Shown piece by piece: positions 4,459 to 26,726 of a stretch of 64,000 nucleotides of DNA. The translations under genes were made by a program, and so were the position numbers. The stretch's first letter is position 1; each line of letters begins with the position of its first letter. Source of the DNA: Salibacterium aidingense DSM 18341 (GTDB lineage Bacteria > Bacillota > Bacilli > Bacillales > Marinococcaceae); assembly GCF_000429685.1 (NCBI RefSeq), contig NZ_KE386940.1:62001-126000 (forward strand), in the 5' to 3' direction. The notes under the pieces are model-generated. The model had not been told where the DNA came from. It saw only the letters and a program-made list of their open reading frames with translations, and searched no databases.

Positions 4459-4488
4459 AAAGGGAAGATTTTAATGTCTTCCCTTTTC
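4458..4488. terminator. Bidirectional terminator between EF-G-binding protein and permease genes
   Basis: AAAAGGGAAGA (4458-4468) pairs with TCTTCCCTTTT (4477-4487). The hairpin overlaps the stop codons of both convergent genes and is T-rich on either strand. Confidence 0.75.
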
Positions 4489-5826: not shown

Positions 5827-5839
5827 AGTACGTCACCTC

Positions 5840-7576
5840 TTATTTTAAATTTGTTTGCCTATGGTAATGGGTTTGTTCCTCATCAAGGTCCAGTTTTTCA
5901 TTAAGAACAACTCCATATTTCTGAAAAGCTTCTTCTACATCAATGTAACCGTCTTTCACATCATCGAGCACGGTATTTGGAGAACGATCAAATGGATGAC
6001 CAAAACCACCGCCCCCGCCAGTTTCCACCTTCACTTTATCCCCCTTGTTCAATAAATAACCGTTTGTTTTTAGCATTGATTGACTTGACTCTACTTTTTG
6101 TACAGTAACGTTTGGAGGAGCGCCCGCTTCTCCATTAAAGAGCCCCCATGCGGGCGTTAAAGAGCGTTCAAACCATAAATTAAGTAATACGTTATCCGTG
6201 CATATTTCATATTCTTTTAATATTCCTAAGCCCCCTCGATTTTTTCCAGCTCCTCCTGAATTTTGGCGCAAACTGTACGTATTTACTTTTAAAGGGTATT
6301 TAGATTCTAATACTTCTACAGGCATATTTTTAAAATCACCATTCGCATTATTTATCAGTCCGGACTGCCCGTCATTTGCTGAAAATCCACCCCAGCCCCC
6401 CGCGGTGGGTTCCACGTATAAAAATGGTTTATGTTCTTTAGAATCAAATCCAGACAAATTAATAACCATTGAATCTCCATAATGGGCAGCAGCACATTGA
6501 TCCTGTAAAACATTTGATAGTGCTTTTATAATCAGGTCTATTAATAAACCTAGCGAGGAAAAATACCATCCACAAGCCGCTGGTTCTTGTGCACTCAATA
6601 TTGTTTTATCTGGGACAAAAATATTCATTGTTTTAAAGTTTCCACCAGTAACCGGAGTCTTTGAACCAATTAAATGTTTGAAGGCCACACGGCAGGCAGA
6701 TATGGTCTGTGCTTTTCCGCAGTTTGTCATCCCTTGACGTTGTAAGCTGGTTCCAGTTAAATTAATGTCCAGATTTTCTCCATAAATGGTTAGTTTTACT
6801 TTTATAAGAACAGGTTCATCACTTACCCCATCATTGTCTAAATAACCTTTCTCTTCATAAATCCCATCAGGTATGCTGGCAATATTTTCCCGATCAATCA
6901 TTTCTGACTGTTTAAAGATGTCGAGCACTGCATTGTTTACGGTCGTCAAACCGTGATTTTCAATAATTTCAACGTACCGTTTTTCTCCTGTTTTACATGC
7001 AGCTATTTGGGCATTCAAATCTCCCAGCGATGATTCTTGAAATCGTCCATTCATCGTAATAAGGTCAATGACATCTTTTCTAGGGCGCCCCTGTTCATAA
7101 ATTCTTGTAGGGGGGATCCGTATCCCTTCTTGATATATTTCGGTGGCATTCATCGAAGAACCCGGATCTTTTGCGCCGACATCCATCCAATGGGCACGCG
7201 TGGCAGAAAATCCAACAATTTTATTGTGGTAAAAAATAGGGGATATTATTGTTATATCATTTAGGTGGGTACCTGCCAGATAGGAATCATTCATTAAATA
7301 GATATCTCCTGGCTTGTAATTTTCTTCTCCTCCTATATATTCGCTGGTGAGTTTAATACATTCGTCCAAATTCCCTAAAAACATTGGAAGCCCGGAAGAT
7401 TGACCTAACAGTTCAGCCTTTTCATTAAAAATGCCTACACTACAATCTTTCATTTCATAAATGATAGGGGAAAAAGAACTTCTCGCTAAACTTTCATTCA
7501 TTTCTTCCGCAGCTGAAACAAAGGCGTTGCGAATAATCTCGGTTGTTACTGGGTTTTCTGAGAATATTTGATTCAT
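5840..7576 (-). CDS. Hydantoinase B/oxoprolinase-family subunit, module 1
   Basis: This 578-residue HyuB-family protein has the family pattern GDIYLMNDSYLAGTHLNDITIISPIF near residues 95-120 and, further on, the GRPRKDVIDLI and NGRFQESSLGDLNAQIAA segments. Its end holds the glycine-rich GGGGGFGHPFDRSP stretch. With HyuA it forms ATP-dependent enzymes that open cyclic amides (N-methylhydantoinase, 5-oxoprolinase) or carboxylases of the acetone/acetophenone type. It overlaps hyuA by 4 nt (ATGA), so the two are translationally coupled. AAGGAGG precedes the start. The block looks more AT-rich than the genes to the right. The reaction cannot be fixed from sequence. Confidence 0.88.
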   Translation of the reverse strand: MNQIFSENPVTTEIIRNAFVSAAEEMNESLARSSFSPIIYEMKDCSVGIFNEKAELLGQSSGLPMFLGNLDECIKLTSEYIGGEENYKPGDIYLMNDSYLAGTHLNDITIISPIFYHNKIVGFSATRAHWMDVGAKDPGSSMNATEIYQEGIRIPPTRIYEQGRPRKDVIDLITMNGRFQESSLGDLNAQIAACKTGEKRYVEIIENHGLTTVNNAVLDIFKQSEMIDRENIASIPDGIYEEKGYLDNDGVSDEPVLIKVKLTIYGENLDINLTGTSLQRQGMTNCGKAQTISACRVAFKHLIGSKTPVTGGNFKTMNIFVPDKTILSAQEPAACGWYFSSLGLLIDLIIKALSNVLQDQCAAAHYGDSMVINLSGFDSKEHKPFLYVEPTAGGWGGFSANDGQSGLINNANGDFKNMPVEVLESKYPLKVNTYSLRQNSGGAGKNRGGLGILKEYEICTDNVLLNLWFERSLTPAWGLFNGEAGAPPNVTVQKVESSQSMLKTNGYLLNKGDKVKVETGGGGGFGHPFDRSPNTVLDDVKDGYIDVEEAFQKYGVVLNEKLDLDEEQTHYHRQTNLK

Positions 7577-9612
7577 GTATGATTCCTCCTTGTAATTTCA
7601 AGACTTCCAGAACTATCAAGCACCACGTTGAAGTCTTCAGGAACTACTACGGTAGAACTTGATGTTTCAATAATCATTGGACCGAGTGCCGATTTATTTG
7701 GAGTTAAATCGAAAATGGAATAAATCGTGGTTTCTTTTTCTACAGACTTCCAAATGACGGGTTTTGACCTCGGGGAGCTGGCCCTCCCGTTCTTATTGTC
7801 TATTCCCTTACTTCGTTGTTCCTTCTTTAACAATCCCTTGCCAGTCAGTCGAAGATTTACGATTTCCACCTGGCCTTCGGGGTTATTATGACCATATATA
7901 TTTAAATGTTTTTCGTGAAAATCTGTTATTAAATGTTTAAGGTTTTGGTTTGTTACTTCATTAGAACTTAGGGGGACCGTTACCGTATATTCCTGACCAG
8001 CATATCTAAGATCGGATAAATAGGTAAAAACCCTGTCTTTTTCACTAATTTTTTGTTGATTGAGAATTTTATCCGTGTCTGTTTTCATTTCGTGATATAG
8101 TCGATTCATTATCCCGTTGTCACACTCTTCCATTGTGGAAACGTAAGTTCTTACATCATCATGGCGAATATCCGTTTGCAGCATTCCCCAAGCTGAAAAA
8201 GTTCCGGCCATGGAAGGTATCATAATTTTATTTATCCCAAGTTTTTCCGCAATGAACATTGCATGCATGGGTCCGGCGCCGCCAAAAGCTACCAATGCAA
8301 AGTCCCGGGGATCGATTCCTTTACTAATGGTCAATGTACGAATAGCGTCTGCCATTTTGGCGTTAGCTATATCGCAAATACCTTCGGCAGTTTCAACCAC
8401 GCTTAAGTCTAATTTCTCAGCCACTTTTTCGATAACGTTGTAAGCACTTCTGTAATCCAACTGCATATCGCTGCTGGAAAATCCTTCTGAATCGATTCTT
8501 CCAAGTACCAGATTGGCATCAGTCACCGTTGCTTCTTTGCCGTTATTACCATAACAGGCCGGACCGGGATTGGAACCCGCACTTTCAGGACCGACTCTTA
8601 AACCGCCGCCTTCAACCCAGGCAATCGAACCGCCTCCAGCCCCAATCGTATGAATATTTACCATCGGAGTCATGATAGGGAATTTTTCCAGCTTCGCTTC
8701 TGATGTGACATCCGGCTGGCCATTTACTATCATGCTTACATCGAAGCTTGTTCCCCCCATATCGACACATATAAGGTGTTGCAGTTTATTAGTTTGGCCT
8801 ATTTCTGTTCCGCCGATGGTTCCTCCTACAGGACCGGACATCATCGTTTGAATAGGTATTTTTTTTGCGATTTCCGCAGTCATTACACCTCCATTAGATT
8901 GCATGATATAAAGTTCCGAATCTAAATCCTTTTTTTTCGTTTCATCATCGAGTTTCTTTAGATACCTTTCAACTATCGGGGCTATATATGCATTGATGAT
9001 CGTTGTGCTTGTTCTTTCGTACTCCCGCCATTCTCTGACAATTTCATGGGATAAAGATACGGAAACATGAGGCAGATATTCGTTTATCCAATGTCTTATT
9101 TGTTTTTCATGTTCAGGGTTATTGTAAGCATGCAGCAAACAAATCGATACGGAATTCAATCCGCGTTCTGTAATTGTATCTATTATTTTCAACACTTCTT
9201 CCTCATTCAAGGGAGTGTCGACACTGCCATCGGCTAACATTCTTTCATTTACTTCAAACACATCGCGTCTTTCAATTAATCGTTTTGGCTGTCGATATTG
9301 AATATTATAGATTTCCGGCCGATTAGCCCTGCCGATTTCGTATATGTCCTTAAATCCTTTTGTCAAAATTAAAGACATGTCAGCTCCTTTTCTTTCTAGA
9401 AATGCATTTAATCCGGCAGTCGTCCCATGAACAAAAAAGTCCACATCTTTTAAATTGGAAATAAGCTTATTGACTCCATTAAGAACACCCAAAGACAGGT
9501 CCTCAGGGGTGGAAGGAGATTTAGCTGTTTGGTACTTGCCTGTTTGTTTGTCATATAAAACAACGTCAGTAAAAGTGCCTCCGATATCAGCTGCTATACG
9601 GTACCTACTCAT
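7573..9612 (-). CDS. Hydantoinase A/oxoprolinase-family subunit, module 1
   Basis: This 679-residue HyuA-family protein belongs to the ASKHA ATPase fold. It shows the N-terminal phosphate loop ADIGGTFTDVVLYD, the second loop DMGGTSFDVSM and the HTIGAGGGSIAW signature, and ends with the small hydantoinase C-terminal domain. HyuA binds and cleaves ATP to activate a lactam, hydantoin or ketone that HyuB then processes. AAGGAGGG lies upstream of the start. It is 25 nt from the M24 peptidase gene and overlaps hyuB by 4 nt. Because the operon may start at the sigma-54 promoter of the hydroxyproline genes, a cyclic product of proline- or hydroxyproline-containing peptides is a possible substrate. 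This is inference only. Confidence 0.88.
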   Translation of the reverse strand: MSRYRIAADIGGTFTDVVLYDKQTGKYQTAKSPSTPEDLSLGVLNGVNKLISNLKDVDFFVHGTTAGLNAFLERKGADMSLILTKGFKDIYEIGRANRPEIYNIQYRQPKRLIERRDVFEVNERMLADGSVDTPLNEEEVLKIIDTITERGLNSVSICLLHAYNNPEHEKQIRHWINEYLPHVSVSLSHEIVREWREYERTSTTIINAYIAPIVERYLKKLDDETKKKDLDSELYIMQSNGGVMTAEIAKKIPIQTMMSGPVGGTIGGTEIGQTNKLQHLICVDMGGTSFDVSMIVNGQPDVTSEAKLEKFPIMTPMVNIHTIGAGGGSIAWVEGGGLRVGPESAGSNPGPACYGNNGKEATVTDANLVLGRIDSEGFSSSDMQLDYRSAYNVIEKVAEKLDLSVVETAEGICDIANAKMADAIRTLTISKGIDPRDFALVAFGGAGPMHAMFIAEKLGINKIMIPSMAGTFSAWGMLQTDIRHDDVRTYVSTMEECDNGIMNRLYHEMKTDTDKILNQQKISEKDRVFTYLSDLRYAGQEYTVTVPLSSNEVTNQNLKHLITDFHEKHLNIYGHNNPEGQVEIVNLRLTGKGLLKKEQRSKGIDNKNGRASSPRSKPVIWKSVEKETTIYSIFDLTPNKSALGPMIIETSSSTVVVPEDFNVVLDSSGSLEITRRNHT

Positions 9613-9637
9613 CGTTTTGGTCCCTCCTTGTGGTAAA

Positions 9638-10750
9638 TCACTTATTTAATGTGATAAGATCTTTTGGAAATGTTGTTAAAATCTCAATGTCCCCATTGGC
9701 CTTTACGTACACGTCATCTTCGATTCTTACTCCGCCCAGGGAAGGAATATATATTCCAGGTTCAATAGTAAATACCATCCCTGTTTCCATTTTTTCTTGA
9801 TTTTGTTCATGAATAGAGGGGGCTTCATGAACTTCCAGGCCAAGACCATGTCCCACTCGGTTATTAAAATAGTCTCCATATCCGCACGCATGGATGTGAT
9901 TCCGGGCTGCTTTATCAATGTTTCCTAAAGATTGGTTGACCTCTACCGCATTGATCGCCAGTTCATTAGCTTTCAGAACTGTGTTATAAATGTTTTTCAT
10001 TTCTTTGCTTTCTTCGCCAATAAAAAAGGTTCTGGAAATATCAGAACAATATCCCCCCACTTTTACTCCCATATCCACTAATAACGGGCAGCCCCTTTGT
10101 ATTGGATTATCACCAGGAGTACCATGCGGGAGGGAGGAATTTGAACCAGCGAGTACAATGGTTGAAAAAGCAGGGGCCTCTGCTCCTTTCAATCGCATCA
10201 AATATTCAAACTCTGCCACGAGCTCATTTTCTGTCATGCCTATTGATACTTTTTTAAGACCCTCTTCTAATACGTTTTCAATCACTTTAATAGCCTGTTT
10301 TACTTGCTTTATTTCTGAATCAGATTTTCGAAGGCGCAATGAGGTTAATATCTTTTCAATATTTATGAATTGGCCATGTGGATAAATTTTTATTAAATTC
10401 TCATATCGTTCCACATTTAATTCTTTTTTTTCAATTCCAATTTGATTTGCAAAAGTTTGGTTATTTTGTTCGATAACGGAAAAAGGAGATTCGTCGTCAG
10501 AAATAGGAATAATGGAATGGATTGTTTCATTTTCTCGTGCGGCTTCAAAATCTAAGGATGGGACATACAATGAATCCTCCTCAGAAGTTCGATCAATCAC
10601 TAATGCCAGCAAACGTTCATGGGGCTCTGAGTAGAAACCTGTAAGGTAATAAATGTTGACTGGTGAAGTTATAAAGCTTAGATTCACATTATTTTCATCT
10701 AATTTTTGTTTCAACTGAGCTAATCTCGATTCATATTCTGAAACCATCAT
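9638..10750 (-). CDS. M24-family metallopeptidase (Xaa-Pro dipeptidase/aminopeptidase-like)
   Basis: The 370-residue protein has a creatinase-type N-terminal domain (NVNLSFITSPVNIYYLTGF) and a C-terminal pita-bread metallopeptidase domain. All five metal ligands are seen: Asp in LVDMGVKVGG and YCSDISRTF, His in GHGLGLEVHEAP, Glu in FTIEPGIY and Glu in VRIEDDVYV. Enzymes of this group cut X-Pro bonds; related creatinases hydrolyse creatine. The position between hyuA and the hydroxyproline genes favours release of proline or hydroxyproline from dipeptides, though a creatinase-like role beside a hydantoinase is an alternative. Two ATG codons in tandem at 10750 and 10747 follow AGGTG, and either may be used. 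Confidence 0.85.
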   Translation of the reverse strand: MMVSEYESRLAQLKQKLDENNVNLSFITSPVNIYYLTGFYSEPHERLLALVIDRTSEEDSLYVPSLDFEAARENETIHSIIPISDDESPFSVIEQNNQTFANQIGIEKKELNVERYENLIKIYPHGQFINIEKILTSLRLRKSDSEIKQVKQAIKVIENVLEEGLKKVSIGMTENELVAEFEYLMRLKGAEAPAFSTIVLAGSNSSLPHGTPGDNPIQRGCPLLVDMGVKVGGYCSDISRTFFIGEESKEMKNIYNTVLKANELAINAVEVNQSLGNIDKAARNHIHACGYGDYFNNRVGHGLGLEVHEAPSIHEQNQEKMETGMVFTIEPGIYIPSLGGVRIEDDVYVKANGDIEILTTFPKDLITLNK

Positions 10751-10820
10751 TTAACACCTCTTTTATTTATGCAGGCTGATGTAAATATAGTTAAACGTGT
10801 AGGGAACTTACTCAAAAATA

Positions 10821-12251
10821 TTACACTTGAGCTACATTTTTTTCATTGTCATAATTTTCGGAATCAGAATCATCTGCTGTGTACCAGATGAATTTACCTG
10901 TAAAACCATAGATAAGCGTGATGATGATGACGAGGAAGTGAAACCATAAAAAGGGGAGATAAGCCATGGTGGATACTCCCAGCGTGGTGGCCATGAATAC
11001 ACCGCCGTCCGACCAGGGGACCATTGGTGTCGTGATCGTTCCGCCGGCTTCCGTATTTCTTGACAGTACCCGCCGGTCAATATTCAGGCGGTCGTAGTTT
11101 TCTTCTGTGATTTTGCTCCCGGTAATAACGGATACATACGCGGCCCCGCCGAAAAAGTTCCCGAAAAAGGCAGCAATTATAGTAGATAGTGTAACTTTGC
11201 CGGCGTTATCTGCCCAGTTCAGCAGTGTCGTGCAAATCACCTGCAAAATTCCTGTCACTTCCATTAATCCGCCCAGCCCAAGGGCCAGCAGTATCAGAAG
11301 GATGACCTCAAGCATCGATACCATTCCGCCGGTGTTCAACAGCGTATCCATAAATTCTACCCCGGAATCGATGGAATAGCCGGCATAAGAAGTTTGAATC
11401 GCATCAAGAAATGGCAGCCCCTGAAAGGCAAACCCCCAGACTGCCCCCAACAATGCTCCAAACGTGATAGTGGGGATAGACGGTTGTTTCATGGCGAGCA
11501 GCACAATAACGATCACAGGAGGGATGAGCATATACCAGGCAATGTTAAACTGCTCCCGCAGCGCTGCCATCGCTGTTTCGGCCTGGGTAAGGTCAACATT
11601 GGCTCCTACATAGAAGAAACCCACCAGTAAAAATAACAGACAAGCTATGATGAAAGCAGGAGTACTCACCCGGAGCATGGATTTAATGTGTTCAATAATA
11701 TTTACTTTGGTTAACGAAGAGGTCATCACCGTCGTATCGGATAACGGAGACAATTTATCTCCGACGTAGGCACCGGAAATAACAGCCCCGGCGACCAGCG
11801 GCAGTGGAATACCAAATCCCTGTCCTATTCCGATCATGGCAATCCCGGCTGTTCCTACAGTACCAAAAGAGGTGCCGGTCGCTAAGGAGGTCAAAGTACA
11901 TATAAGCACGGTGGCGAATAAAAATATGCTCGGGTTTATAACTGCCAGACCGTAATAGATAATGCTTGGGACGATGCCGCCGGCGACCCAGGTTCCGATA
12001 AGAGCTCCGACGGTAATCAATATCAGGACAGCTTCCATTCCGTTGGAAATCCCCTGCAGCAGGCCTTCCTGGAGTTTTTTATAATGAAAACCAAGCCATA
12101 TCCCAAGTCCGATCACCATAAACCACGACGTGAAGAGGGCCAGTTGAATCGGCAGTTCCAATATATTAATGAAACTGAACATAATAATAATAAAGAGAAT
12201 AAGAACCCCAACCACTTCTGCGGCTGTCGGGAGACGAGGATCTTTTGTCAT
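10821..12251 (-). CDS. NhaC-family Na+/H+ antiporter or amino-acid-coupled carrier
   Basis: This 476-residue membrane protein has about a dozen hydrophobic segments and NhaC-family motifs, among them TGTSFGTVGTAGIAMIGIG and SGAYVGDKLSPLSDTTVM. NhaC proteins exchange Na+ for H+. Some relatives (MleN, a malate-2H+/Na+-lactate antiporter) move organic solutes, and NhaC genes are often found in amino-acid catabolic operons. Here it lies 32 nt downstream of the hydroxyproline epimerase gene, so carriage of hydroxyproline or its product, or Na+ extrusion after Na+-coupled uptake, is plausible (inference). AAGGGTGG precedes the ATG. A 70-nt gap without a visible terminator separates it from the peptidase gene. 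Confidence 0.82.
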   Translation of the reverse strand: MTKDPRLPTAAEVVGVLILFIIIMFSFINILELPIQLALFTSWFMVIGLGIWLGFHYKKLQEGLLQGISNGMEAVLILITVGALIGTWVAGGIVPSIIYYGLAVINPSIFLFATVLICTLTSLATGTSFGTVGTAGIAMIGIGQGFGIPLPLVAGAVISGAYVGDKLSPLSDTTVMTSSLTKVNIIEHIKSMLRVSTPAFIIACLLFLLVGFFYVGANVDLTQAETAMAALREQFNIAWYMLIPPVIVIVLLAMKQPSIPTITFGALLGAVWGFAFQGLPFLDAIQTSYAGYSIDSGVEFMDTLLNTGGMVSMLEVILLILLALGLGGLMEVTGILQVICTTLLNWADNAGKVTLSTIIAAFFGNFFGGAAYVSVITGSKITEENYDRLNIDRRVLSRNTEAGGTITTPMVPWSDGGVFMATTLGVSTMAYLPFLWFHFLVIIITLIYGFTGKFIWYTADDSDSENYDNEKNVAQV

Positions 12252-12283: not shown

Positions 12284-13309
12284 TTAATGTTCTTCCATTT
12301 CCGGGATCAACAGAAATCCTTCCTCCAGTGGATCTTTTGGATCGATAAAAAACTGGTGCATGCCGGTGATCCAGGCTGATCCGGTGATCCTGGTTTCAAC
12401 AGCTGTCCCTGTTTCCATCTGAATTTCATCTGTGACTTCTCCTTGAAACACACTTCCTACAATGCTTTCATGTCCAAATCGTTCGTTTTTTTCTATTTCT
12501 TTTTTTGCATACAATGCTGCCAGCTTTGCGGAGGTTCCGGTACCGCACGGCGAACGGTCTATTCCACCGGGAGGGACAACGACCGTGTTTTTAATAGAAG
12601 CCTCAGGGGCTTCTGCCTGGCTGAAAAATTCAATGTGGGTCAACCCTTTGATAAAGGGTTTTTCTGGATGTTGGATCGTGTGATTTTCGTTTATTTTCTC
12701 TCGCAGGCTGACTGCTTTCTTTATGATGCGCGGAGCATTTTCCGGGTGAAGCTCCAGACCCAACGGCCGGGCATCGATAATGCCGTAAAAGTTTCCCCCG
12801 TAGGCAATATCGCAGGAAACCGTCGTATCCGCCGCTTCGTCTTCGATCTGGATGGTTTGAAGAAAGAAAGAAGGAACATTGGTAAAGGAGACCTCCTGGG
12901 CGCGTCCGTTTTCCACCTGTATGTCTACCTTCACCAGTCCGGCGGGGGTTTCCAGCGTCAGGGTGGTGATAGGTTCCACGGCCTCGATTTTTCCGGATTC
13001 TATTAATGCGGTACAGAATCCAATGGTATCGTGCCCGCACATTGGGAGGTATCCGCCGGTTTCTATATAGATGACTCCTACATCAGCATCAGGGTGGCAG
13101 GCTTCGAGCAGCACGGCCCCGGACATGACATCGTGGCCTCTCGGCTCAAACATTAATAGCTTACGGATCCAGTCATGATTCTTTTTCATATCGAGCATTT
13201 TTTCTTCGATCGTAGTCCCCTGTAATAATGGAATGCCGCTGACAATAGTCCTTGTTGGATTCCCCCCGGTATGCGTATCGATCGTGTGAAATATATGCCT
13301 GGTGTTCAT
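12284..13309 (-). CDS. 4-hydroxyproline 2-epimerase (proline racemase family)
   Basis: This 341-residue enzyme has both catalytic cysteines of the proline racemase family: Cys91 in LPMCGHDTIG and Cys255 in DRSPCGTGTSA. Enzymes with both cysteines racemise or epimerise; dehydratases of the family have Thr in place of one. The N-terminal IDTHTGGNPTR motif is also typical. In the known pathway trans-4-hydroxy-L-proline becomes cis-4-hydroxy-D-proline. The surrounding oxidoreductases, deaminase and aldehyde dehydrogenase supply every later step, which is why hydroxyproline rather than proline is favoured. It overlaps the DAO-type flavoprotein gene by 4 nt, and AAAGGAGG precedes its ATG. It corresponds to lhpA/hypE in other bacteria. 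Confidence 0.88.
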   Translation of the reverse strand: MNTRHIFHTIDTHTGGNPTRTIVSGIPLLQGTTIEEKMLDMKKNHDWIRKLLMFEPRGHDVMSGAVLLEACHPDADVGVIYIETGGYLPMCGHDTIGFCTALIESGKIEAVEPITTLTLETPAGLVKVDIQVENGRAQEVSFTNVPSFFLQTIQIEDEAADTTVSCDIAYGGNFYGIIDARPLGLELHPENAPRIIKKAVSLREKINENHTIQHPEKPFIKGLTHIEFFSQAEAPEASIKNTVVVPPGGIDRSPCGTGTSAKLAALYAKKEIEKNERFGHESIVGSVFQGEVTDEIQMETGTAVETRITGSAWITGMHQFFIDPKDPLEEGFLLIPEMEEH

Positions 13310-14496
13310 GGATGGACCTCCTTTTGTTGAAATCGCTGCAGGGATAATGGGGTAGTGGGAATGATGGTTTCCGGTGCCTCCTCTATCAATTCCTGAATCA
13401 GTTTTCCGGTTACAGCAGCCAGGCTGATGCCATCCCCTTCATGTCCCGCTGCCACATAAAACCCTGGATAGTCCACTGCTTCAGAGACGATAGGCAGATG
13501 ATCGGGGGTCCAGGGGCGCAAACCTGCATAACTTCGAATCATGAGCATGTCTTTCAATTCTGGATAAAAACGGGCCGCGCGCCTGGCGATATTTTGAACC
13601 ACCCTGAAATTAACTTTTGTATCAAATCCATTGAATTCCCGGCTGCTGCCGATAAGAAAATTCTGGCTCACCGTGGGTTCGAATACAAGGGCGGCGCCAT
13701 TCCTGTCTGTTTCTTCATCTACTGTGCGTTCCCCTCCGAATTTTGAAATTAAATACCCGAACTCCATTACTTTCCGCATCCCGACCGGCATTTCGCGGGA
13801 CGCGACAATAATATGTCCCTTTCTGGGATGAATGGGAATATCCATTGTCTCATCCAGCAAGTTACCGATGAAGGGCGCCCATACTCCTGCGGCATTGACG
13901 ACTTTATCGGCGTATATCCGCCCCCTGCCGGTTTCTACCTTATACTGATATTCCTCCTGCAGGAAGGTGAGATTTGTCACTTCGGTATGAGCATGAAAAA
14001 CAGCTCCATGCTTTTCGGCACCATGAATGAGGGAATAGGTCATCAAATAAGGGTTGACGGTGGCGTCACTTTCACATTCCAATCCTCCCGGGAGATCATC
14101 CGCAAAATACTTTGATTCCTGCTTCAGATCCTGCCGATCCAGCATTCGGAAAGGAAGCCCCTCCCGTTTCTGCTGGGTCACCCATTTTTGCGCGGCTTCC
14201 ATTTCTTCCTCTGTTTCACAAACTAAAATACTGCCCGGATTTCTGTATTCAAAGGGGATTGTTAGTTCTTCCTGCAGCTCATGAACCAGTTGCTGGCTGA
14301 CCAGGGACATTTTGCTGTCAAACCCTGGGTCTTTATCGATGGCAAGGATATTACCGTCACATTTAGATGAGGTGCCTGCGGCAAATTCTCCTTTGTCTAT
14401 CAACATGACATCATGACCGGTTTTCGCTGTGTAGTAAGCTATCGCACTGCCAATTATCCCTCCTCCAATAATCAGAACTTCGCAACTTGTTTTCAT
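13306..14496 (-). CDS. DAO-family FAD oxidoreductase, probable D-hydroxyproline dehydrogenase beta subunit
   Basis: This 396-residue protein has the N-terminal dinucleotide-binding motif VLIIGGGIIGSAIAYYTA and the glycine/D-amino-acid oxidase fold, ending in GFYVAAGHEGDGISLA. It resembles the beta (substrate-oxidising) subunits of multi-subunit D-hydroxyproline or proline dehydrogenases and opine oxidases. Its partners, two [2Fe-2S] proteins and a Pyr_redox flavoprotein, are encoded divergently from 14710. It should oxidise cis-4-hydroxy-D-proline to 1-pyrroline-4-hydroxy-2-carboxylate. The start at 14496 is chosen for AGGGGG 6 nt upstream; an in-frame start 25 codons earlier would run into the promoter. 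It is the first gene of the leftward sigma-54 operon. Confidence 0.85.
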   Translation of the reverse strand: MKTSCEVLIIGGGIIGSAIAYYTAKTGHDVMLIDKGEFAAGTSSKCDGNILAIDKDPGFDSKMSLVSQQLVHELQEELTIPFEYRNPGSILVCETEEEMEAAQKWVTQQKREGLPFRMLDRQDLKQESKYFADDLPGGLECESDATVNPYLMTYSLIHGAEKHGAVFHAHTEVTNLTFLQEEYQYKVETGRGRIYADKVVNAAGVWAPFIGNLLDETMDIPIHPRKGHIIVASREMPVGMRKVMEFGYLISKFGGERTVDEETDRNGAALVFEPTVSQNFLIGSSREFNGFDTKVNFRVVQNIARRAARFYPELKDMLMIRSYAGLRPWTPDHLPIVSEAVDYPGFYVAAGHEGDGISLAAVTGKLIQELIEEAPETIIPTTPLSLQRFQQKEVHP

Positions 14497-14528: not shown

Positions 14529-14546
14529 ATGCAAACAATATGCCAA
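14529..14546 (-). promoter_or_regulatory. Sigma-54 (-24/-12) promoter, leftward hydroxyproline operon
   Basis: On the minus strand the sequence reads TTGGCATATTGTTTGCAT, with GG and GC exactly 10 nt apart. This matches the sigma-54 consensus TTGGCAC-N5-TTGC. It lies ~35 bp upstream of the flavoprotein start and faces away from the promoter at 14664. Confidence 0.82.
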
Positions 14547-14588
14547 CCATGGAAAACGTACTCATCTTCAAAAGCAGAAGTAAAAACT

Positions 14589-14625
14589 GTCAAGAAGTTT
14601 AGAAAGTGAGTCTAAAAATTTAGAC
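14589..14625. promoter_or_regulatory. Tandem inverted-repeat activator site (UAS) shared by divergent sigma-54 promoters
   Basis: An inverted repeat with 7-bp arms GTCTAAA and TTTAGAC around AA lies at 14610-14625. A degenerate copy matching 12 of 16 positions (14589-14604) sits 21 bp, or two helical turns, away. The pair is between the two divergent -24/-12 promoters, at typical enhancer distance from both. It is the best candidate binding site of the sigma-54 activator encoded at 19004. Confidence 0.65.
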
Positions 14626-14663
14626 AATTGGAAGAGGAGACAGCGGGGAACCCGTTTAAAATG

Positions 14664-14680
14664 TTGGCTGGATTTTTGCA
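14664..14680 (+). promoter_or_regulatory. Sigma-54 (-24/-12) promoter, rightward hydroxyproline operon
   Basis: TTGGCTGGATTTTTGCA has GG (14666-14667) and GC (14678-14679) 10 nt apart, as sigma-54 requires. It ends 29 bp before the first rightward gene. Confidence 0.82.
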
Positions 14681-14709: not shown

Positions 14710-14976
14710 ATGATGGATCGAGAGACGATCATTTGCCGATGTGAAGAAGTAACCTATGAAGAATTAATAACTACAGCAGACTCCTACCACTGTTCGGCAC
14801 GGGAATTAAAACTTCGGACACGTGCTGGAATGGGAATATGCGGCGGAAGAACCTGTCGTTTTTTAATAGAAGATGCAGCAGAGGAAAGCAAAGAGAAAGT
14901 TTATGAAAATATTCCGTTAAAATATCAGCCTCCGGTACGCCCTATGAGGTTTGATGAAGGAGGAAAAAATAAATGA
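14710..14976 (+). CDS. BFD-like [2Fe-2S]-binding protein, dehydrogenase small subunit
   Basis: This 88-residue protein has the cysteine pattern of bacterioferritin-associated-ferredoxin-like domains: IICRCEEV near the N-terminus and GMGICGGRTC near residue 48. These ligate one [2Fe-2S] cluster. The same domain is fused to the alpha subunit in some opine/D-hydroxyproline dehydrogenases; here it is a separate gene. AAAGGAGG precedes tandem ATG codons at 14710 and 14713. It overlaps the next gene by 4 nt, and transcription should come from the sigma-54 promoter at 14664. Confidence 0.82.
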   Translation: MMDRETIICRCEEVTYEELITTADSYHCSARELKLRTRAGMGICGGRTCRFLIEDAAEESKEKVYENIPLKYQPPVRPMRFDEGGKNK

Positions 14977-15302
14977 ATAGAATTACCGATCATCCTGTGT
15001 TAGGCCGAACGGAGAAAAAATGTATCGAGTTTTTCCTGGACGATACAAAAATGACAGCACGAAGCGGGGAAACGATTGCGGCTGCCTTGCTTGCCAATAA
15101 CATACGGACCTTAAGATATCATGAAGCTTCGGGATCACCTCGGGGGATTTACTGTAACATCGGCCACTGTTTTGAATGCAGGGTCGAGGTGGACGGAAAG
15201 ACCGGAGTGCGGGCATGTATGACCGAAGTCTGCAGCGGGATGCGGGTATACCGGCAGCAGCAGCTTCCCCGCCCTTTTCAGGAAGGGGGGAGGGAAAGAT
15301 GA
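14973..15302 (+). CDS. Ferredoxin-like [2Fe-2S] protein (Fer2_4), dehydrogenase subunit
   Basis: The 109-residue protein has YCNIGHCFECRVEVDG followed by RACMTEV, giving the four cysteines of a plant-ferredoxin-like [2Fe-2S] site. Such Fer2_4 proteins are the gamma subunits (HcnA/OoxA-N type) of multi-subunit flavin dehydrogenases acting on cyclic amino acids and opines. AAGGAGG precedes the start. Both ends overlap neighbouring genes by 4 nt (ATGA), so stoichiometric translation of the complex is likely. Confidence 0.85.
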   Translation: MNRITDHPVLGRTEKKCIEFFLDDTKMTARSGETIAAALLANNIRTLRYHEASGSPRGIYCNIGHCFECRVEVDGKTGVRACMTEVCSGMRVYRQQQLPRPFQEGGRER

Positions 15303-16531
15303 ACGAAGCGGAAGTCGTTATTATCGGCGCAGGGCCTGCCGGTTTAAGCGCGGCAATTCAATCAGCCCGCTGCGGTTTGCGTGTGACAGTATTGGATGAA
15401 TTCATGAAACCGGGAGGACGCCTGCTTGGCCAGCTGCATGAAGAGAAGAAAGGAGTATGGTGGAACGGGATTGAGGAAGCTGATCGATTATATGAGGACG
15501 CGGTAAACAGCGGGGTCCATATACGTTTAGGAACAACCGTTTATCATATCGAAAAGGAAAACCGGTGGGTGACAGAAACATCGGAAGGAACCTGGGAATC
15601 ACGCTGCTTACTGCTTGCTGCCGGCGCGGCTGAAACACCGCTTCCGATAAGCGGATGGACTCTGCCGGGCGTCATGTCTATTGGAGCTGCGCAGGTCATG
15701 ACGAATGTGCACCGGGTGACACCGGGCAATAAAGGAATCATTATAGGGATTAATCCGTTGACGATGGCAATCGCAAGAGAACTGCAGCTCGCCGGCGTGG
15801 AGATAGAAGGTATTTATATTCCTCCCTATGAAAAGAAGTTCCGGCAGATGGAAACTCCTGAACAGATACTCGCCGGTATGCAGCGCATGGCCCATTTGGC
15901 TCCTTCCTTTCTCCTGAGGGTGGGAAGCAGATTTCTGGTGAACCAATGGACGAGGCAGAAAGCTATTCAATTTTATCCCAAAAAAGGGTTGTCTGTCTGG
16001 GGCATTCCCATTCATTTTGATAAAACGGTCACAAAGATTATTGGGGAGAACGAGGTGAAGGGCGGATTTATTTCGTCCATCAACGCGGAAGGAATTATTA
16101 AGGAAGAGGAGCAGTACAGGAAAGAGGTGGATTTTGTCTGTATTTCCGGCGGATTATATCCCCTGGTGGAACTGGCAGCGGTGGCAGGCTGTCCGTTTTA
16201 TCTTATTCCGGAACTGGGCGGACATATCCCGCTTCACAACCAAACGATGCATACGCCGGTGGAGGGATTGTTTGTTGCAGGAAATATTACCGGGATTGAA
16301 TCGGCGAAAATAGCGATGGTCCAAGGGGAAACGGCTGGCTTATCAATGGGGAAAGCTGTAAACGGTACTTCCAGGGACATAGAGGAGAAACTGCACCAGA
16401 GTGTGCAAAATGAAAAACGGATCAGGGCGGAAGCGCTCATTCAGTTTCACCCGGAGGTTAAAAAGGGAAGAGAAAAAATGCACGAGCTGTGGCAGAATTA
16501 TGTCAAAGAATCAGCAGCGGCAAAGGAATAG
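15299..16531 (+). CDS. Pyridine-nucleotide-disulphide-type FAD oxidoreductase, probable D-hydroxyproline dehydrogenase alpha subunit
   Basis: This 410-residue flavoprotein begins with VVIIGAGPAGLSAAIQSARCG, has a second Rossmann segment (NKGIIIGINPLTMAIARELQ) and a C-terminal GLFVAGNITGIESAKIA FAD motif. It resembles HcnB/OoxA and alpha subunits of heteromeric D-hydroxyproline/proline dehydrogenases, which pass electrons from the beta flavoprotein through Fe-S clusters to the respiratory chain. The start at 15299 is set by the 4-nt overlap with the previous gene and GGGGGGAGG upstream; a longer frame from 15176 would lie inside that gene. The final residues do not carry the Cys-rich BFD domain, which is here a separate gene at 14710. 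Confidence 0.85.
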   Translation: MNEAEVVIIGAGPAGLSAAIQSARCGLRVTVLDEFMKPGGRLLGQLHEEKKGVWWNGIEEADRLYEDAVNSGVHIRLGTTVYHIEKENRWVTETSEGTWESRCLLLAAGAAETPLPISGWTLPGVMSIGAAQVMTNVHRVTPGNKGIIIGINPLTMAIARELQLAGVEIEGIYIPPYEKKFRQMETPEQILAGMQRMAHLAPSFLLRVGSRFLVNQWTRQKAIQFYPKKGLSVWGIPIHFDKTVTKIIGENEVKGGFISSINAEGIIKEEEQYRKEVDFVCISGGLYPLVELAAVAGCPFYLIPELGGHIPLHNQTMHTPVEGLFVAGNITGIESAKIAMVQGETAGLSMGKAVNGTSRDIEEKLHQSVQNEKRIRAEALIQFHPEVKKGREKMHELWQNYVKESAAAKE

Positions 16532-16533
16532 AT

Positions 16534-16573
16534 AAAAAGGGCAGTCCCTGCAAGACAGGGGCTGCCCTTTTTT
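16534..16573. terminator. Bidirectional terminator between convergent hydroxyproline operons
   Basis: AAAAAGGGCAG-CCCTG pairs with CAGGG-CTGCCCTTTTT around a short loop. There are A/T tracts on both sides, so it serves both strands. Confidence 0.9.
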
Positions 16574-18014
16574 ACAGCTGCCATCCGTAGTTGACAGCGC
16601 AGGTCTTGGTTTCACTGTAGAAAGACAGGGCCGCCTGTCCCTGTTCTCTCGTATGGGAACTGGATTCTTTCATGCCTCCAAAAGGAGCCTGATATTCGAC
16701 ACCGGCGGTTTCCTGGTTGACCCGCACCATACCGGCATTTGTTTCCTCGAGGAAGCGGTGGGCTTCTGATAGATTGTTGGTGAAAACAGAAGCGCTTAAA
16801 CCAAATACTGTATCATTGCTAAGGGAAATGGCCTCGTGGGTATCCGACGCCGAAACAAGCACGATAATAGGACCAAATGTTTCCTCCCGCCAGAGCTCAT
16901 GACTGGTGTCGATGGCTTCTACAATAAGCGGAGAAATAAAGTAGCCGTGCTGGCTTGGAATATCTGCTTCTGCGATCACGTTTCCATCTTTTTTGGCGAG
17001 CGCGTGGTAATGCCTGACCTTTTCAAACTGTTCCTTTGAAGCCACAGGGCCGGAATAGGCTTCTTCCTCTCGGGCTGGTTTAACCTGCACATGCTGCATT
17101 TCCTGAAGCAGAGCTTCTTTCAGTTTTTCTTTTACACCCTCTTCCACAATGACCCGGCTGGTGGCGGTACATTTCTGCCCGGCAGAACGGAAGGCGCCAC
17201 TGAGAAGGGCTGCAGCTGTTTTTTTCATATCTGCATCTTTTAATACAATCGCTGGATTTTTCCCGCCCATTTCTGTTTGATACTTAATATTGCGTGCTGC
17301 GCACGTTTTCGCTGCCTTTCTGCCAACCTCGGTAGAGCCGGTGAAGCTGAGGGCATCTATGGAGGCCTCCTCCAGGAGGTGCTGCCCAACTTCCCGGCCT
17401 CGGCCGATAAGGAGATTAATCAGACCATCCGGCACTCCGGCTTCTTTAAACACTTCCATCATTTTATATGCAGTTAATGATGCGTTTTCTGCCGGCTTCC
17501 AGATTACAGCGTTCCCACAAATCAAGGCCGGGGCTATTTTCCATACAGGGATCGCTGCCGGGAAGTTCCATGGGGTAATCACGCCGACAACACCCAGTGG
17601 GACACGTTTTGCATATTGGAGCACGTGCGGGGCGCTGGATGGTATCGTATCTCCATCGGGACGGACACCTTCCGCCGCGTAATATTTGAAAAGTTGAACA
17701 GCCCGCTGTACCTCTCCTTTCATTTCCGTGATCGGCTTTCCCATTTCGTCACTTCCGGCTGCAGCGATTTCCGCGGCATGGGTACTGATGGCATCCGCCA
17801 GTTGATAGAGCAGCTGGCTTTTTTGCGCGCCAGTTTTTGCGCCCCATTCTTTCTGGGCAGAAACGGCAGCCTGTTCCGCCTTCCTTACTGATTCTTTTGG
17901 ACTGTACATGATGGTTCCTACTTGGCTGGTGAGATCGGACGGGTTCCATACTTGTTTTTCACCAACGGTTTCCTGCATTTCTTTTCCGTTTATTATACTG
18001 ACGGCTGTAATCAT
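16572..18014 (-). CDS. Aldehyde dehydrogenase, probable 2-oxoglutarate semialdehyde dehydrogenase
   Basis: This 480-residue NAD(P)-dependent aldehyde dehydrogenase carries the family motifs: PWNFPAAIPVWKIAPAL, FTGSTEVG, the catalytic glutamate in TEMGGKNP and the nucleophile cysteine in SAGQKCTATSR. In hydroxyproline degradation this position is held by 2-oxoglutarate (alpha-ketoglutaric) semialdehyde dehydrogenase, which feeds 2-oxoglutarate into the TCA cycle. Its upstream neighbour is the deaminase that makes the semialdehyde. The gap to that gene is 12 nt, and AAGGAGG precedes the ATG. The substrate is inferred from context. Confidence 0.88.
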   Translation of the reverse strand: MITAVSIINGKEMQETVGEKQVWNPSDLTSQVGTIMYSPKESVRKAEQAAVSAQKEWGAKTGAQKSQLLYQLADAISTHAAEIAAAGSDEMGKPITEMKGEVQRAVQLFKYYAAEGVRPDGDTIPSSAPHVLQYAKRVPLGVVGVITPWNFPAAIPVWKIAPALICGNAVIWKPAENASLTAYKMMEVFKEAGVPDGLINLLIGRGREVGQHLLEEASIDALSFTGSTEVGRKAAKTCAARNIKYQTEMGGKNPAIVLKDADMKKTAAALLSGAFRSAGQKCTATSRVIVEEGVKEKLKEALLQEMQHVQVKPAREEEAYSGPVASKEQFEKVRHYHALAKKDGNVIAEADIPSQHGYFISPLIVEAIDTSHELWREETFGPIIVLVSASDTHEAISLSNDTVFGLSASVFTNNLSEAHRFLEETNAGMVRVNQETAGVEYQAPFGGMKESSSHTREQGQAALSFYSETKTCAVNYGWQL

Positions 18015-18026
18015 TAAGAAACCTCC

Positions 18027-18911
18027 TTACTGAGAGATGGTTGTTCCTTTTGCATAATGGAAATCTGCTTTGATGGAGGCATAGTAGTCATCCGGGAGCG
18101 GCAGACGCGGCGGGCGTGTCGGGCCGCAGTCCTGTCCGGCAAGTTTTGCCATGTATTTGATGGACTGAACGAGCTGCGGATTGGCATCATAATGAAACAA
18201 CGGCAATAATTTTCGATACAGAGCCAGCCCTTTTTCGATTTCCCCTTTTCTGCCATAGTGGAATAGCTCGCAGCCTTCCACTGGCAGGGCATTGGGGACG
18301 CCTGAAATCCAGCCGGTGGCTCCGGATAACGCTCCTTCAAAGGCTAAATCATCTACGCCGATCATTACCTCCAGATTTGTTTTTTCTAAGATGTCGTGCA
18401 CGCGCCGGACGTCACCGGAAAATTCCTTAACCCCAACAATATTTTCAAATTGACCGATTTCTTTCAGCAATTCCGGTGTGAGATCTGTCGGGTAATCGTG
18501 AGGATTGTTATAGGCTATAACGGGCAGGCCGACATCAGACAGGGCTTCATAGTGAGCGAGTATTTCGTGTTTCATCGGGTTATAGTTGATGGGCGGAAGT
18601 GCCATCAGGCCGGCCGCTCCTGCATCTTTGGCGTGGCGGGCCCACTTCGTCACCTGCCTGGTTGAAGGAGCGCCGGTCCCCACCATAACAGGGACACGGC
18701 CGGCAGCAGCTTCAATTACTGTTTCAACCACCTTAACCCGTTCTGTTTCTTCGAGGGTGGCGTACTCGCCAAGTGATCCTCCCGGAATTAAACCATCCAC
18801 CCCCTGATCAATTAACCATTTGCAGAATGTCTGCAGTCGTTGATAATCGACTTCTTGATTCTCGTCAAAAGGAGTAATCAAGGCAATATATACTCCGTCG
18901 AAATAAGCCAT
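18027..18911 (-). CDS. DHDPS-family lyase, probable 1-pyrroline-4-hydroxy-2-carboxylate deaminase
   Basis: This 294-residue class I aldolase-fold protein has the Schiff-base lysine (Lys162 in IVGVKEFSG), the tyrosine in VIAYNNPHD (Tyr134) and a GSLGEY motif near residue 45. Members of the dihydrodipicolinate synthase family in hydroxyproline clusters deaminate and dehydrate 1-pyrroline-4-hydroxy-2-carboxylate to 2-oxoglutarate semialdehyde. The gene context (epimerase, D-hydroxyproline dehydrogenase, aldehyde dehydrogenase) makes this more likely than lysine biosynthesis or sialic-acid lyase. The start at 18911 gives the normal family N-terminus (MAYFDGVYIALITPF). Its promoter is the -24/-12 element at 18952. 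Confidence 0.85.
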   Translation of the reverse strand: MAYFDGVYIALITPFDENQEVDYQRLQTFCKWLIDQGVDGLIPGGSLGEYATLEETERVKVVETVIEAAAGRVPVMVGTGAPSTRQVTKWARHAKDAGAAGLMALPPINYNPMKHEILAHYEALSDVGLPVIAYNNPHDYPTDLTPELLKEIGQFENIVGVKEFSGDVRRVHDILEKTNLEVMIGVDDLAFEGALSGATGWISGVPNALPVEGCELFHYGRKGEIEKGLALYRKLLPLFHYDANPQLVQSIKYMAKLAGQDCGPTRPPRLPLPDDYYASIKADFHYAKGTTISQ

Positions 18912-18951: not shown

Positions 18952-18969
18952 ATGCAAAAATGATGCCAC
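18952..18969 (-). promoter_or_regulatory. Sigma-54 (-24/-12) promoter of the deaminase-aldehyde dehydrogenase operon
   Basis: On the minus strand the sequence reads GTGGCATCATTTTTGCAT, with GG and GC separated by exactly 10 nt. It is ~40 bp upstream of the deaminase start. No copy of the tandem UAS was found near it. Confidence 0.78.
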
Positions 18970-18989
18970 ATCTGTAGGACAGATGCGGC
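18957..18989 (-). terminator. Probable terminator of the sigma-54 activator gene, overlapping the next promoter
   Basis: Arms GCCACATCTGT (18965-18975) and ACAGATGCGGC (18979-18989) match at 10 of 11 positions around a 3-nt loop. On the minus strand they are followed by ATTTTT. The stem ends 15 nt after the activator stop codon and overlaps the -24 element of the deaminase promoter. Confidence 0.55.
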
Positions 18990-19003
18990 TCGATCTATGT
19001 GTA

Positions 19004-20752
19004 TTATAAATGTTCCAGATGATGCCGGTTTAATTTATTGTACAGGGTGGCCCTGGAGACCCCCAGTGTTTTCGCAGCCATGTTGCGGCTGCCCTGTTCT
19101 TTTTCGAGAGCTTTGCGGATAATCGATTTTTCATGTCGTTCCATTTCTTCCTTCAGGGACAGCAGAGGAACTGAAGGTGCTTTGCTGTTTTCTTCCATAG
19201 AAGGAGAGGTAGGTCCAGGATTCTGGTGCAGCCGGTCAGGAAGATCTCTTGGTTCGACGACTTGATTGGAGCTGAATACGACAATGTGCTCGATCACATT
19301 TTTCAGTTCTCTTATGTTACCGGGCCAGGAATATTCCATTAACAGCTGCATAGCTTCCGGGGAGATCAGTTCGATCTGCCGCTGATATTTACTGGCTATT
19401 TCATACAGGTATAAATGAGCGATGTCTACAATATCATCCCGACGTTCCCGCAGCGGCGGTATCGTTAATGGAATGGTGTTGAGCCGGTAATACAGATCTT
19501 CCCGGAACCTGCCATCATCCACTAACTTTTCAAGATTCTTGTTAGTGGCTGCCACAATACGGCAGTCTACTTTTAACTCTTTTGTTCCGCCTACGGGAAA
19601 ATAATAATTTTCCTGCAGCACTCTTAAAAATTTCACCTGCATGTCAAACGGAAGTTCTCCGATTTCATCAAGAAACAGGGTGCCGCCTTTAGCCAGCTCA
19701 ATTTTTCCCGCCTTTCCTTTATTTAAGGCACCGGAAAAAGCGCCCTTTTCATACCCAAACAGCTCACTTTCAAACAAGGTCGGGGAAATGGCCCCGCAGT
19801 TAATAGCAATAAAGGGAGCTGATTTTGGTTCCCTGATTTGGTGAACGGCCTTAGCGAATAACTCTTTCCCTACCCCCGTTTCTCCGTAAATAAGGATCGT
19901 TGCTTCCGTAGAAGATACCTTTTTAATTTTTTCTTTCACCTCATCCAGTTCCTTGCTATTGCCATTAATCATCATAAAGGGATCAGGTTCAGCGTTCAGA
20001 TTCTGCATTTTCTGCTCCAAATCGCTGATTTTCTGGTTCGCCTGAAACAATTCCCGGTGAAGCTGCACATGACTGGTGACATCCACCTCAGCAGCAACCG
20101 CTCCGACGATGTCTTCATGTAAATAAATAGGTTTGGCATTGATAAGTACAAATAAATCGGGGCGGGGCTGGTGCTGAAATCGTTGATAGGATTTTCCGGA
20201 ATAGAGAGAATCTCGGCATTTTAACATGGATTCCTGGAAAAATTCCGTCATCGGCTTCCCCAGAATGTCTTCTTTTTTAATGGAAAATATCTGTTCCGCC
20301 CCGGACGTCCAGACGACGGTCCGTTCGTGTTCATCAATCATTGAAATAGAGGCATCCATTGTGTCTATCATCGTATCGAAATATGCCTTCAGATAGGAGT
20401 AGGAATGGTGAAAAGCAAAGAGAGCCTGTTTGATATCCAATATTCCTTCTGTTTGGCCGAACTTATTTATTACCACAGCTTTTTCCGATGTTTTGCATAC
20501 AGAAAGAAGTTCTTCTAAAGAAGCGGACGAAGTTAATACAGGCAGTTTTGTAGAAAAAGTCAAAATGATTTCCTTTGTCAGCTGTACATTTGTTGAGCCC
20601 CCGCAGAGACATACATAATAGGTTTCATTATAAAAATAAATGATTTCCCGATAATGTCCCTCACGAAAAGCAGATCGAATGTCTTCCCAAGTCGTGAAGA
20701 TTTGCACGTTTTCATCAACGAGTTCCCGCAGTTCAGGAAGATGATGCCGCAT
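19004..20752 (-). CDS. Sigma-54-dependent transcriptional activator of hydroxyproline catabolism
   Basis: This 582-residue activator has an N-terminal sensory region of ~120 residues without a firm family call (a CBS-like GILDIKQAL segment is near 103-111) and a PAS domain at about 125-230. The AAA+ domain spans about 262-500: Walker A GETGVGKE at 290-297, GAFSGA at 337-342 (a variant of GAFTGA), Walker B GGTLFLDE at 356-363 and arginine finger region RFREDLYYR. A Fis-type helix-turn-helix (SRNMAAKTLGVSRATLYNKL) ends the protein. Such proteins bind distant sites and drive sigma-54 RNA polymerase. Three sigma-54 promoters surround it. AGAAGGAGC precedes the start. PrdR-like activators of proline metabolism are the nearest concept known to me. 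Confidence 0.9.
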   Translation of the reverse strand: MRHHLPELRELVDENVQIFTTWEDIRSAFREGHYREIIYFYNETYYVCLCGGSTNVQLTKEIILTFSTKLPVLTSSASLEELLSVCKTSEKAVVINKFGQTEGILDIKQALFAFHHSYSYLKAYFDTMIDTMDASISMIDEHERTVVWTSGAEQIFSIKKEDILGKPMTEFFQESMLKCRDSLYSGKSYQRFQHQPRPDLFVLINAKPIYLHEDIVGAVAAEVDVTSHVQLHRELFQANQKISDLEQKMQNLNAEPDPFMMINGNSKELDEVKEKIKKVSSTEATILIYGETGVGKELFAKAVHQIREPKSAPFIAINCGAISPTLFESELFGYEKGAFSGALNKGKAGKIELAKGGTLFLDEIGELPFDMQVKFLRVLQENYYFPVGGTKELKVDCRIVAATNKNLEKLVDDGRFREDLYYRLNTIPLTIPPLRERRDDIVDIAHLYLYEIASKYQRQIELISPEAMQLLMEYSWPGNIRELKNVIEHIVVFSSNQVVEPRDLPDRLHQNPGPTSPSMEENSKAPSVPLLSLKEEMERHEKSIIRKALEKEQGSRNMAAKTLGVSRATLYNKLNRHHLEHL

Positions 20753-20787
20753 AGATAGGATGCTCCTTCTGTATAAGTGTTTAGATA

Positions 20788-20816
20788 ATTTTACAGTAGT
20801 TATAGAAAAGTGTAAA
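20788..20816 (-). promoter_or_regulatory. Sigma-A promoter of the sigma-54 activator gene
   Basis: On the minus strand a -35 TTTACA (20811-20816) and a -10 TAAAAT (20788-20793) are 17 bp apart, ~36 bp upstream of the start codon. Confidence 0.55.
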
Positions 20817-20826
20817 ATATTTTAGA
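20811..20826. promoter_or_regulatory. UAS-like inverted repeat over the activator promoter
   Basis: TGTAAAATATTTTAGA is a near-perfect inverted repeat (arms TGTAAAA and TTTTAGA). It resembles the GTCTAAA/TTTAGAC site at 14610 and overlaps the -35 box, so it could mediate autoregulation. Confidence 0.35.
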
Positions 20827-21207
20827 ATTTTTTGTATTCCTATCAGGAATGGGGATGCTTTCACAAAGAAGTCAAAAGTCCCAGAATTGAAGAAGTGGAA
20901 AATTGGGAATACAATAGCTGCTTAAATACAGAGAAGTTCCAATGTTTTCTGACATGGATCCCAGTGATACAGGGGATGTTTTCTCATTTAAGGGGGCTGC
21001 AGCACGTGAATCGATATATCAATGAGATAAAACAACTGCTGAAAAACACTGCAGGTGTCAGGTGGAGCCGAAGACGGGCATCCCTCAGACTTGTGTTCCG
21101 GAGCTTTCTTTACGAAAAATTAGAGTAAATTAAATAATATATTTATAATCTCTTCACATTCTTTTCTTACAATGCAGGGAGATGCTAGGAAAAGGATGTG
21201 AAGGGTA
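20827..21207. other. Intergenic region without a recognised gene
   Basis: The only long open frame here (from a TTG near 20832) has no ribosome site and no familiar sequence. A TATAAT at 21144-21149, ~60 bp before the S-layer-type gene, may be its -10 box; no convincing -35 was found. The stretch may hold remnants of a lost gene, but nothing can be named. Confidence 0.4.
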
Positions 21208-25618: not shown

Positions 25619-25676
25619 ATAGAATGTCTATTAAAGATATAATCTCTTTAGTAGAGGGATGGGAGGGAGAGTTGTC

Positions 25677-26723: not shown

Positions 26724-26726
26724 TAC

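Follow-up and report, generated by a model that had tools for sequence, protein, structure and literature searches.

The locus described here, in Salibacterium aidingense DSM 18341, is in our judgement highly probable, from its sequence, to be a hydroxyproline-catabolism regulon controlled by a SoxR-type sigma-54 activator. Hydroxyproline is an amino acid of collagen. In the proposed model, the activator (19004-20752) would bind tandem 18-bp boxes of the form TGTnTAAAwwTTTAnACA, and a pair of these boxes at 14588-14626 would loop to the promoters on both of its sides, so that the oxidase subunit, its electron-transfer partners and the epimerase would be made together. A second pair at 20778-20828 would cover the activator's own sigma-A-like promoter, where it probably represses the activator, and would probably also activate a third sigma-54 promoter, P3 (18953-18969), across the activator gene for expression of the deaminase and dehydrogenase. 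P3 would sit inside the terminator of the activator gene, and this terminator would keep read-through transcription out of the last two genes. The system is mostly of a known kind that has been described under another name; its layout is distinct, P3 is unusual, and the locus is real and conserved. The promoter elements, the boxes, their conservation and the hairpin are features of the DNA itself, and from these we infer the substrate, the inducer, the looping and all activity in S. aidingense.

The window, which is the whole 64,000-nucleotide stretch analysed, encodes by family matches each enzyme of the epimerase-type pathway, namely 4-hydroxyproline 2-epimerase (4HypE), D-hydroxyproline oxidation, deaminase and 2-oxoglutarate semialdehyde dehydrogenase. 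These families fit the four-step route from trans-4-hydroxy-L-proline to 2-oxoglutarate given in the accessible text of PMC4113996. On the reverse strand, the DAO-family oxidase/dehydrogenase subunit (13306-14493; PF01266) is predicted to oxidise cis-4-hydroxy-D-proline and is followed by the predicted 4HypE, a proline racemase family protein (12284-13309; PF05544, with Cys91 and Cys255) whose best solved relative is a proline racemase. Also on the reverse strand are a DHDPS-family enzyme (18027-18911; PF00701, with Lys162), the predicted deaminase, and an aldehyde dehydrogenase (16572-18014), the predicted 2-oxoglutarate semialdehyde dehydrogenase, for which NF042993 is the best NCBIfam match at 569 bits, under the cut-off of 770. 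No window protein reached the equivalog cut-off for a hydroxyproline-pathway protein, and the substrate is therefore deduced from the combination of enzymes. The first-pass annotation had claimed that all steps from hydroxy-L-proline to 2-oxoglutarate are encoded together with the activator, and at the level of family matches this is borne out, with hydroxyproline as the implied substrate.

On the forward strand lie genes for a BFD-like [2Fe-2S] protein (14710-14976; PF04324), a Fer2_4 [2Fe-2S] protein (14973-15302; PF13510) and a SoxA/HcnA-like FAD/NAD oxidoreductase subunit (15296-16531; PF07992). The oxidoreductase matches TIGR01372 partially and far under the cut-off; the scores against this model were 87 and 24 bits, with a cut-off of 1164. 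By analogy, the divergent operons would yield the two halves of one oxidase complex. The hydroxyproline dehydrogenase complex of Pseudomonas is reportedly hetero-oligomeric.

Downstream of the epimerase, genes for NhaC, an M24 peptidase, hydantoinase A/B and a cytosine/purine-type permease (4471-12251, reverse strand; PF03553, PF00557, PF01968, PF02538 and PF02133) are separated by short gaps, which suggest that they are probably co-transcribed with the epimerase as the rest of its operon. The permease and hydantoinase genes of locus L105 likewise adjoin its epimerases. Proline racemase and N-methylhydantoinase A are among the sigma-54 genes enriched in Bacilli in a regulon survey (PMC12316311), and their listing fits the operon in the window, but the survey, in its accessible text, is a COG-level prediction that names no locus or activator and makes no link to hydroxyproline. 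In the gap between the NhaC and peptidase genes, two weak box-like sites lie 30 bp apart (10780-10797, 8.8 bits; 10810-10827, 6.9 bits), and scans of this gap for sigma-54 elements found none. TRAP transporter genes of the DctP and DctM families are found downstream of the cluster at 25659-28657 on the forward strand.

The oxidase and BFD genes diverge from a 216-bp gap bounded by their starts at 14493 (reverse) and 14710 (forward). Within it, two outward-facing -24/-12 elements, both with GG-N10-GC, precede the two operons: P_DAO (TTGGCATATTGTTTGCA; 14530-14546, reverse) before the DAO-epimerase operon, and P_BFD (TTGGCTGGATTTTTGCA; 14664-14680, forward) before the BFD-Fer2-oxidoreductase operon. 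Between them is a perfect 16-bp palindrome, GTCTAAA-AA-TTTAGAC (GTCTAAAAATTTAGAC; 14610-14625), and at an offset of 21 bp a second copy with 12/16 identity (GTCAAGAAGTTTAGAA; 14589-14604). The exact spacing of the elements and both repeat copies had been reported in the first-pass annotation, and all were recovered. The repeats form the cores of putative activator boxes A (14609-14626) and B (14588-14605), 21 bp apart; the distance from box A to the P_BFD element is 37 bp, and that from box B to the P_DAO element is 41 bp. The top box score of the gap was reached by none of 2000 dinucleotide shuffles, and the palindrome pattern had no other exact occurrence genome-wide. In the 4.4-Mb genome, the promoter pattern TTGGCN7TTGCW has 29 occurrences compared to 15 for the reversed pattern, and one SigL is encoded. 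Nine of these 29 sites are no more than about 1.3 kb from one or another of the genome's 12 strong PF00158 activators.

Conservation of the two GG-N10-GC elements among relatives, which the first-pass annotation had named as a check, was strong. Relatives were drawn from the family (29 genomes, 9 with a match, own genome included), from the order (397 genomes, 23 with a match, own included) and from a named genome collection (33 loci, of which the 29 close ones were used and the distant L049-L052 were not). An element matching at least 11 of 13 consensus positions was kept before 42 of the 45 oxidase genes that are first in their operon (5/900 in shuffles; the exceptions are L028, L044 and L047) and before all 24 first-gene BFD loci (3/480 in shuffles), where only identical copies were collapsed and close species are thus counted apart. 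For these counts the minimum identity was 55% for oxidases and 45% for BFD proteins, and own copies and refetched loci were excluded; seven oxidase and two BFD loci were left out because the gene is not the first of its operon, and a BFD gene directly after the activator gene was counted as a first gene. Direct oxidase|BFD divergence is common to L007, L009, L037 and L039, with both elements in all four (L101/L104 are apparently the same contig as L039, with an equal length of 530,071). In most other relatives, as in Bacillus thuringiensis (Bt), the activator and oxidase genes diverge from each other.

The putative activator box was defined by EM on regions upstream of oxidase promoters, as the palindromic 18-mer given above. 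The 44 loci with a P_DAO element gave 28 nonredundant regions, 22 of them outside the window's family; loci lacking an element, L033 (upstream region too short) and L086 and L094 (presumed, unchecked copies of L085 and L093) were left out. When the 64 kb were scanned with the motif trained on the 22 regions outside the window's family, the top four sites were boxes A (17.4 bits), C (14.2 bits), D (12.6 bits) and B (12.0 bits), the second and third of which lie upstream of the activator gene. The fifth (20770-20787, 11.5 bits) overlaps box C. In repeated four-fold cross-validation over the 28 regions in five rounds, a held-out box was found in 102/140 tests compared to 87/2800 shuffles, and a held-out tandem pair, 17-24 bp apart and mostly 19, in 65/140 tests compared to 0/2800. 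In the first round, 8 of the 28 regions had no held-out box (L009, L012, L022, L042, L090, L095, L096 and L098). Placed in one register, the DNase I footprint of Bt SoxR, which was outside the training set, spans 15 of the 18 positions of the box; its score there, 13.1 bits, was reached by 5 of 5000 shuffles. Genome-wide, the box pattern with up to two mismatches gave 37 matches compared to 31 for its reverse; with no excess, regulon members beyond the window locus are not callable, and a genome-wide regulon based on the pattern was dropped.

Could the palindrome belong to an unrelated regulator, with the sigma-54 elements used by another activator? The genome encodes 12 strong PF00158 activators. 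According to the accessible text of PMC6615313, many activator groups share sites of the form TGT-N10-12-ACA, which makes the box a new member of a known site class. We regard this possibility as highly improbable, since box pairs occur at the oxidase gene, at the activator gene and at free-standing deaminase genes of the same pathway, since the motif recognises the Bt SoxR footprint as a box, and since the linked activators form one clade. The activator in the window (19004-20752, reverse) is of the PAS-AAA+-Fis type (PF00158, PF02954, PF00989), and together with 14 DAO-linked activators it was grouped with support of 98/99 in a tree of such activators from other Bacillales and of own-genome paralogs. 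The own-genome paralogs, 8 of the 11 other strong activators being in the tree, fall outside this clade, with their long branches flagged. Among the DAO-linked activators read to the C-terminus, [ST]RATLYN is kept in the recognition helix, with variation in L102, L022 and L044. Against the NCBIfam PrdR equivalog, the window activator scored 506.5 bits, below the cut-off of 795. PrdR and other clostridial activators resemble it in domain type and in their upstream inverted TGT...ACA sites, but PrdR serves proline reductase (accessible sections of PMC6615313). We take the boxes to be candidate sites of the SoxR-like activator itself.

A different question is whether the pair at 14588-14626 serves both promoters. 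It may serve one of them or mainly repress, with the other promoter using the boxes upstream of the activator gene. In L102, all three sigma-54 elements are kept and there is no box between P_DAO and P_BFD, and no box is near any of five BFD|XPP divergent sigma-54 pairs of Paenibacillaceae, four of which are separated by 8-44 bp. From these boxless gaps it follows that either activators commonly act from a distance or the motif misses some sites. Against such a division of labour, each box of the pair stands close to a different promoter, the nearest relative, L007, keeps the pair with the same 21-bp spacing, and in the accessible text on Bt, one site serves both promoters. We consider the divided arrangement unlikely and favour a shared tandem enhancer of the divergent sigma-54 promoters. 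The first-pass proposal of such an enhancer is well supported by conservation, the held-out motif and the Bt footprint score. In the boxless gap of L102 (10160-10220), which is syntenic to the box-bearing gap of the window, the two divergent sigma-54 elements are about 20 bp apart. The close-set BFD|XPP promoters, 8-44 bp apart, are those of BFD and M24 peptidase genes in L028, L031, L036 and L047.

Upstream of the activator gene, box C (20778-20795) lies over the -10 and box D (20811-20828) over the -35 of a sigma-A-like promoter, TTTACA-N17-TAAAAT (20788-20816, reverse; 10/12 consensus positions), for which the evidence is weak, as the consensus scan gave 16 sites compared to 12.5 expected. 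In L103, boxes are at -77 and -35 relative to the activator start codon, and in L102 the activator gene is preceded only by weak ones, of 11.1 and 8.6 bits. Because Bt SoxR lowers its own expression in the accessible text of PMC4941409, autorepression would be the natural reading of boxes C and D.

The first-pass annotation had the two divergent promoters controlling the complete pathway. For the oxidase, the epimerase and the partners this agrees with our results, but the DHDPS and aldehyde dehydrogenase genes are on P3, which, like the second box pair, the annotation missed. P3 (18953-18969, reverse; GTGGCATCATTTTTGCA) lies 42 bp before the DHDPS start, between the activator and DHDPS genes and 4.3 kb from the boxes at 14588-14626. 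Its element is kept in L103 and L102, the two other genomes found with the epimerase-to-activator gene order, which argues that the deaminase and dehydrogenase genes have a sigma-54 promoter of their own. A terminator-like hairpin closing the activator gene (18965-18989, reverse) overlaps P3; it has 11 perfect pairs and then ATCATTTTT. The 3' arm of the hairpin and the T-run make up the -24 region and spacer of P3, with the -24 GGC inside the arm. The 46-nt RNA 18955-19000 folds at -19.8 kcal/mol (z -5.9). Hairpins of 12 and 11 pairs are present in L103 and L102, with letters that differ from the window, and none of 100 shuffles for each of the three genomes gave a match.

Hairpin scores at P3 were 17 in the window, 18 in L103 and 16 in L102, compared to at most 10 at all other promoters tested. 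The top scores were 10 (L030) at 14 promoters that separate an activator gene from BFD, 9 at 22 P_DAO, 5 at 11 other P_BFD, 6 at four other P_DHDPS and 7 at a further eight, and 10 at the 29 TTGGC-type sites in S. aidingense itself. A promoter embedded in a terminator is therefore ruled out as a general rule. The only candidate for a local enhancer of P3, at 19027-19044 (8.3-8.4 bits), was also rejected, since the score is only 2.0 in L103 and 4.4 in L102. Among promoters directly downstream of an activator gene, 0 of 17 loci had a box of at least 10 bits within 300 nt, compared to 9 of 10 deaminase promoters elsewhere, the exception, L048, being a promoter after another pathway gene. These contrasting counts, together with the requirement of Bt soxC, downstream of soxR, for a site upstream of soxR (accessible text of PMC4941409), suggest that P3 would most likely be activated from the boxes at 20778-20828, 1.8 kb away across the activator gene. 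Tentatively, and with less than even confidence, the 37 bp at 18953-18989 may form a dual element that serves both as the intrinsic terminator of the activator gene and as a sigma-54 promoter activated from 1.8 kb upstream. If so, leakage of the activator transcript would be stopped exactly where sigma-54 polymerase waits.

The system closest to the window is the Bt HD73 sox locus, as presented in the accessible sections of PMC4941409. It consists of the opposed units soxB/E/F/G/H/I and soxR/C/D/A, described as serving sarcosine utilisation, and includes proline racemase, DHDPS and ALDH genes. The sigma-54 promoters of soxB and soxC were mapped by 5' RACE, SoxR was footprinted, one SoxR site was required by both promoters, and SoxR lowers its own expression; both promoters depend on sigma-54 and SoxR (accessible text of PMC4428206). 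By analogy with Bt, the window locus too may show binding by its SoxR-type activator, dependence on sigma-54, activation across the activator gene and autorepression. The first-pass statement that this arrangement is undescribed in Bacillaceae is accordingly corrected by the two sigma-54 promoters and one SoxR site of this locus. The two loci are alike in their oxidase, proline racemase, DHDPS, ALDH, SoxC/D/A-like partners and PAS-type sigma-54 activator, and in having two sigma-54 promoters served by one activator site whose footprint scores as a box. The -24/-12 promoters of the soxB and soxC counterparts are present in the window. In contrast, the Bt activator gene lies between both promoters, whereas the window promoters diverge across one gap and the activator gene, which has a box pair to itself, lies at a distance of 4.3 kb. 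The Bt DHDPS and ALDH genes lie in the oxidase operon, whereas those of the window have a third sigma-54 promoter.

The gene order of L023-L027, L029 and L030 follows Bt sox, with a second racemase-like gene in place of soxF, which is annotated as hypothetical in the accessible text of PMC4941409. None of the 397 genomes of the order contained the pattern of the Bt SoxR footprint. That the Bt locus is the same as the window locus would rest on gene content, gene order and footprint rather than on alignment, and it is very likely that Bt 'sox' is the hydroxyproline locus, in which case the sarcosine phenotype would be either a side activity or a true second function. Nowhere in the accessible text of PMC4941409 does the word hydroxyproline appear. 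A related strand comes from B. cereus ATCC 14579, which grows on trans-4-hydroxyproline with induction of a predicted 4HypE gene and its neighbours (PMC4113996, accessible text). Its predicted 4HypE, DAAO, DHDPS and ALDH family genes are alike to those of the window, but the accessible parts of that paper hold no promoter, sigma-54 factor or activator analysis. Its primer lists cover BC2832-BC2836 and BC0905-BC0906, and the pairing of locus tags with enzymes was inferred from these lists.

That the locus instead serves sarcosine or secondary amines generally, with hydroxyproline as a side substrate, is a reading we think quite improbable. In its favour, Bt soxB and soxR mutants fail to grow on sarcosine as nitrogen source (accessible text of PMC4941409), and the oxidase partners resemble pieces of SoxA. 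However, genes for the epimerase, the DHDPS-family enzyme and the 2-oxoglutarate-semialdehyde-type dehydrogenase often travel with the oxidase, and they are not known to have a role in sarcosine breakdown. The oxidase scored 70 bits against soxB (TIGR01373), far under the cut-off of 529. Expression of the predicted 4HypE gene of B. cereus, and of the genes next to it, goes up on trans-4-hydroxyproline (PMC4113996, accessible text).

Our searches of the open-access literature, from which subscription journals are largely missing, found no paper linking the sigma-54 'sarcosine' locus with the hydroxyproline genes of B. cereus. New here are the joining of these two strands, a box shared across the lineage, a rearranged gene layout and, in the three genomes found with that gene order, what would be a sigma-54 promoter within the terminator hairpin of an activator gene. 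P3 would thereby provide a natural test of a sigma-54 promoter doubling as a terminator and of an enhancer acting across a gene. The box TGTnTAAAwwTTTAnACA is usable for reading such loci. Together, these results predict that hydroxyproline is the natural substrate of the sox-type regulon across Bacillaceae and Paenibacillaceae.
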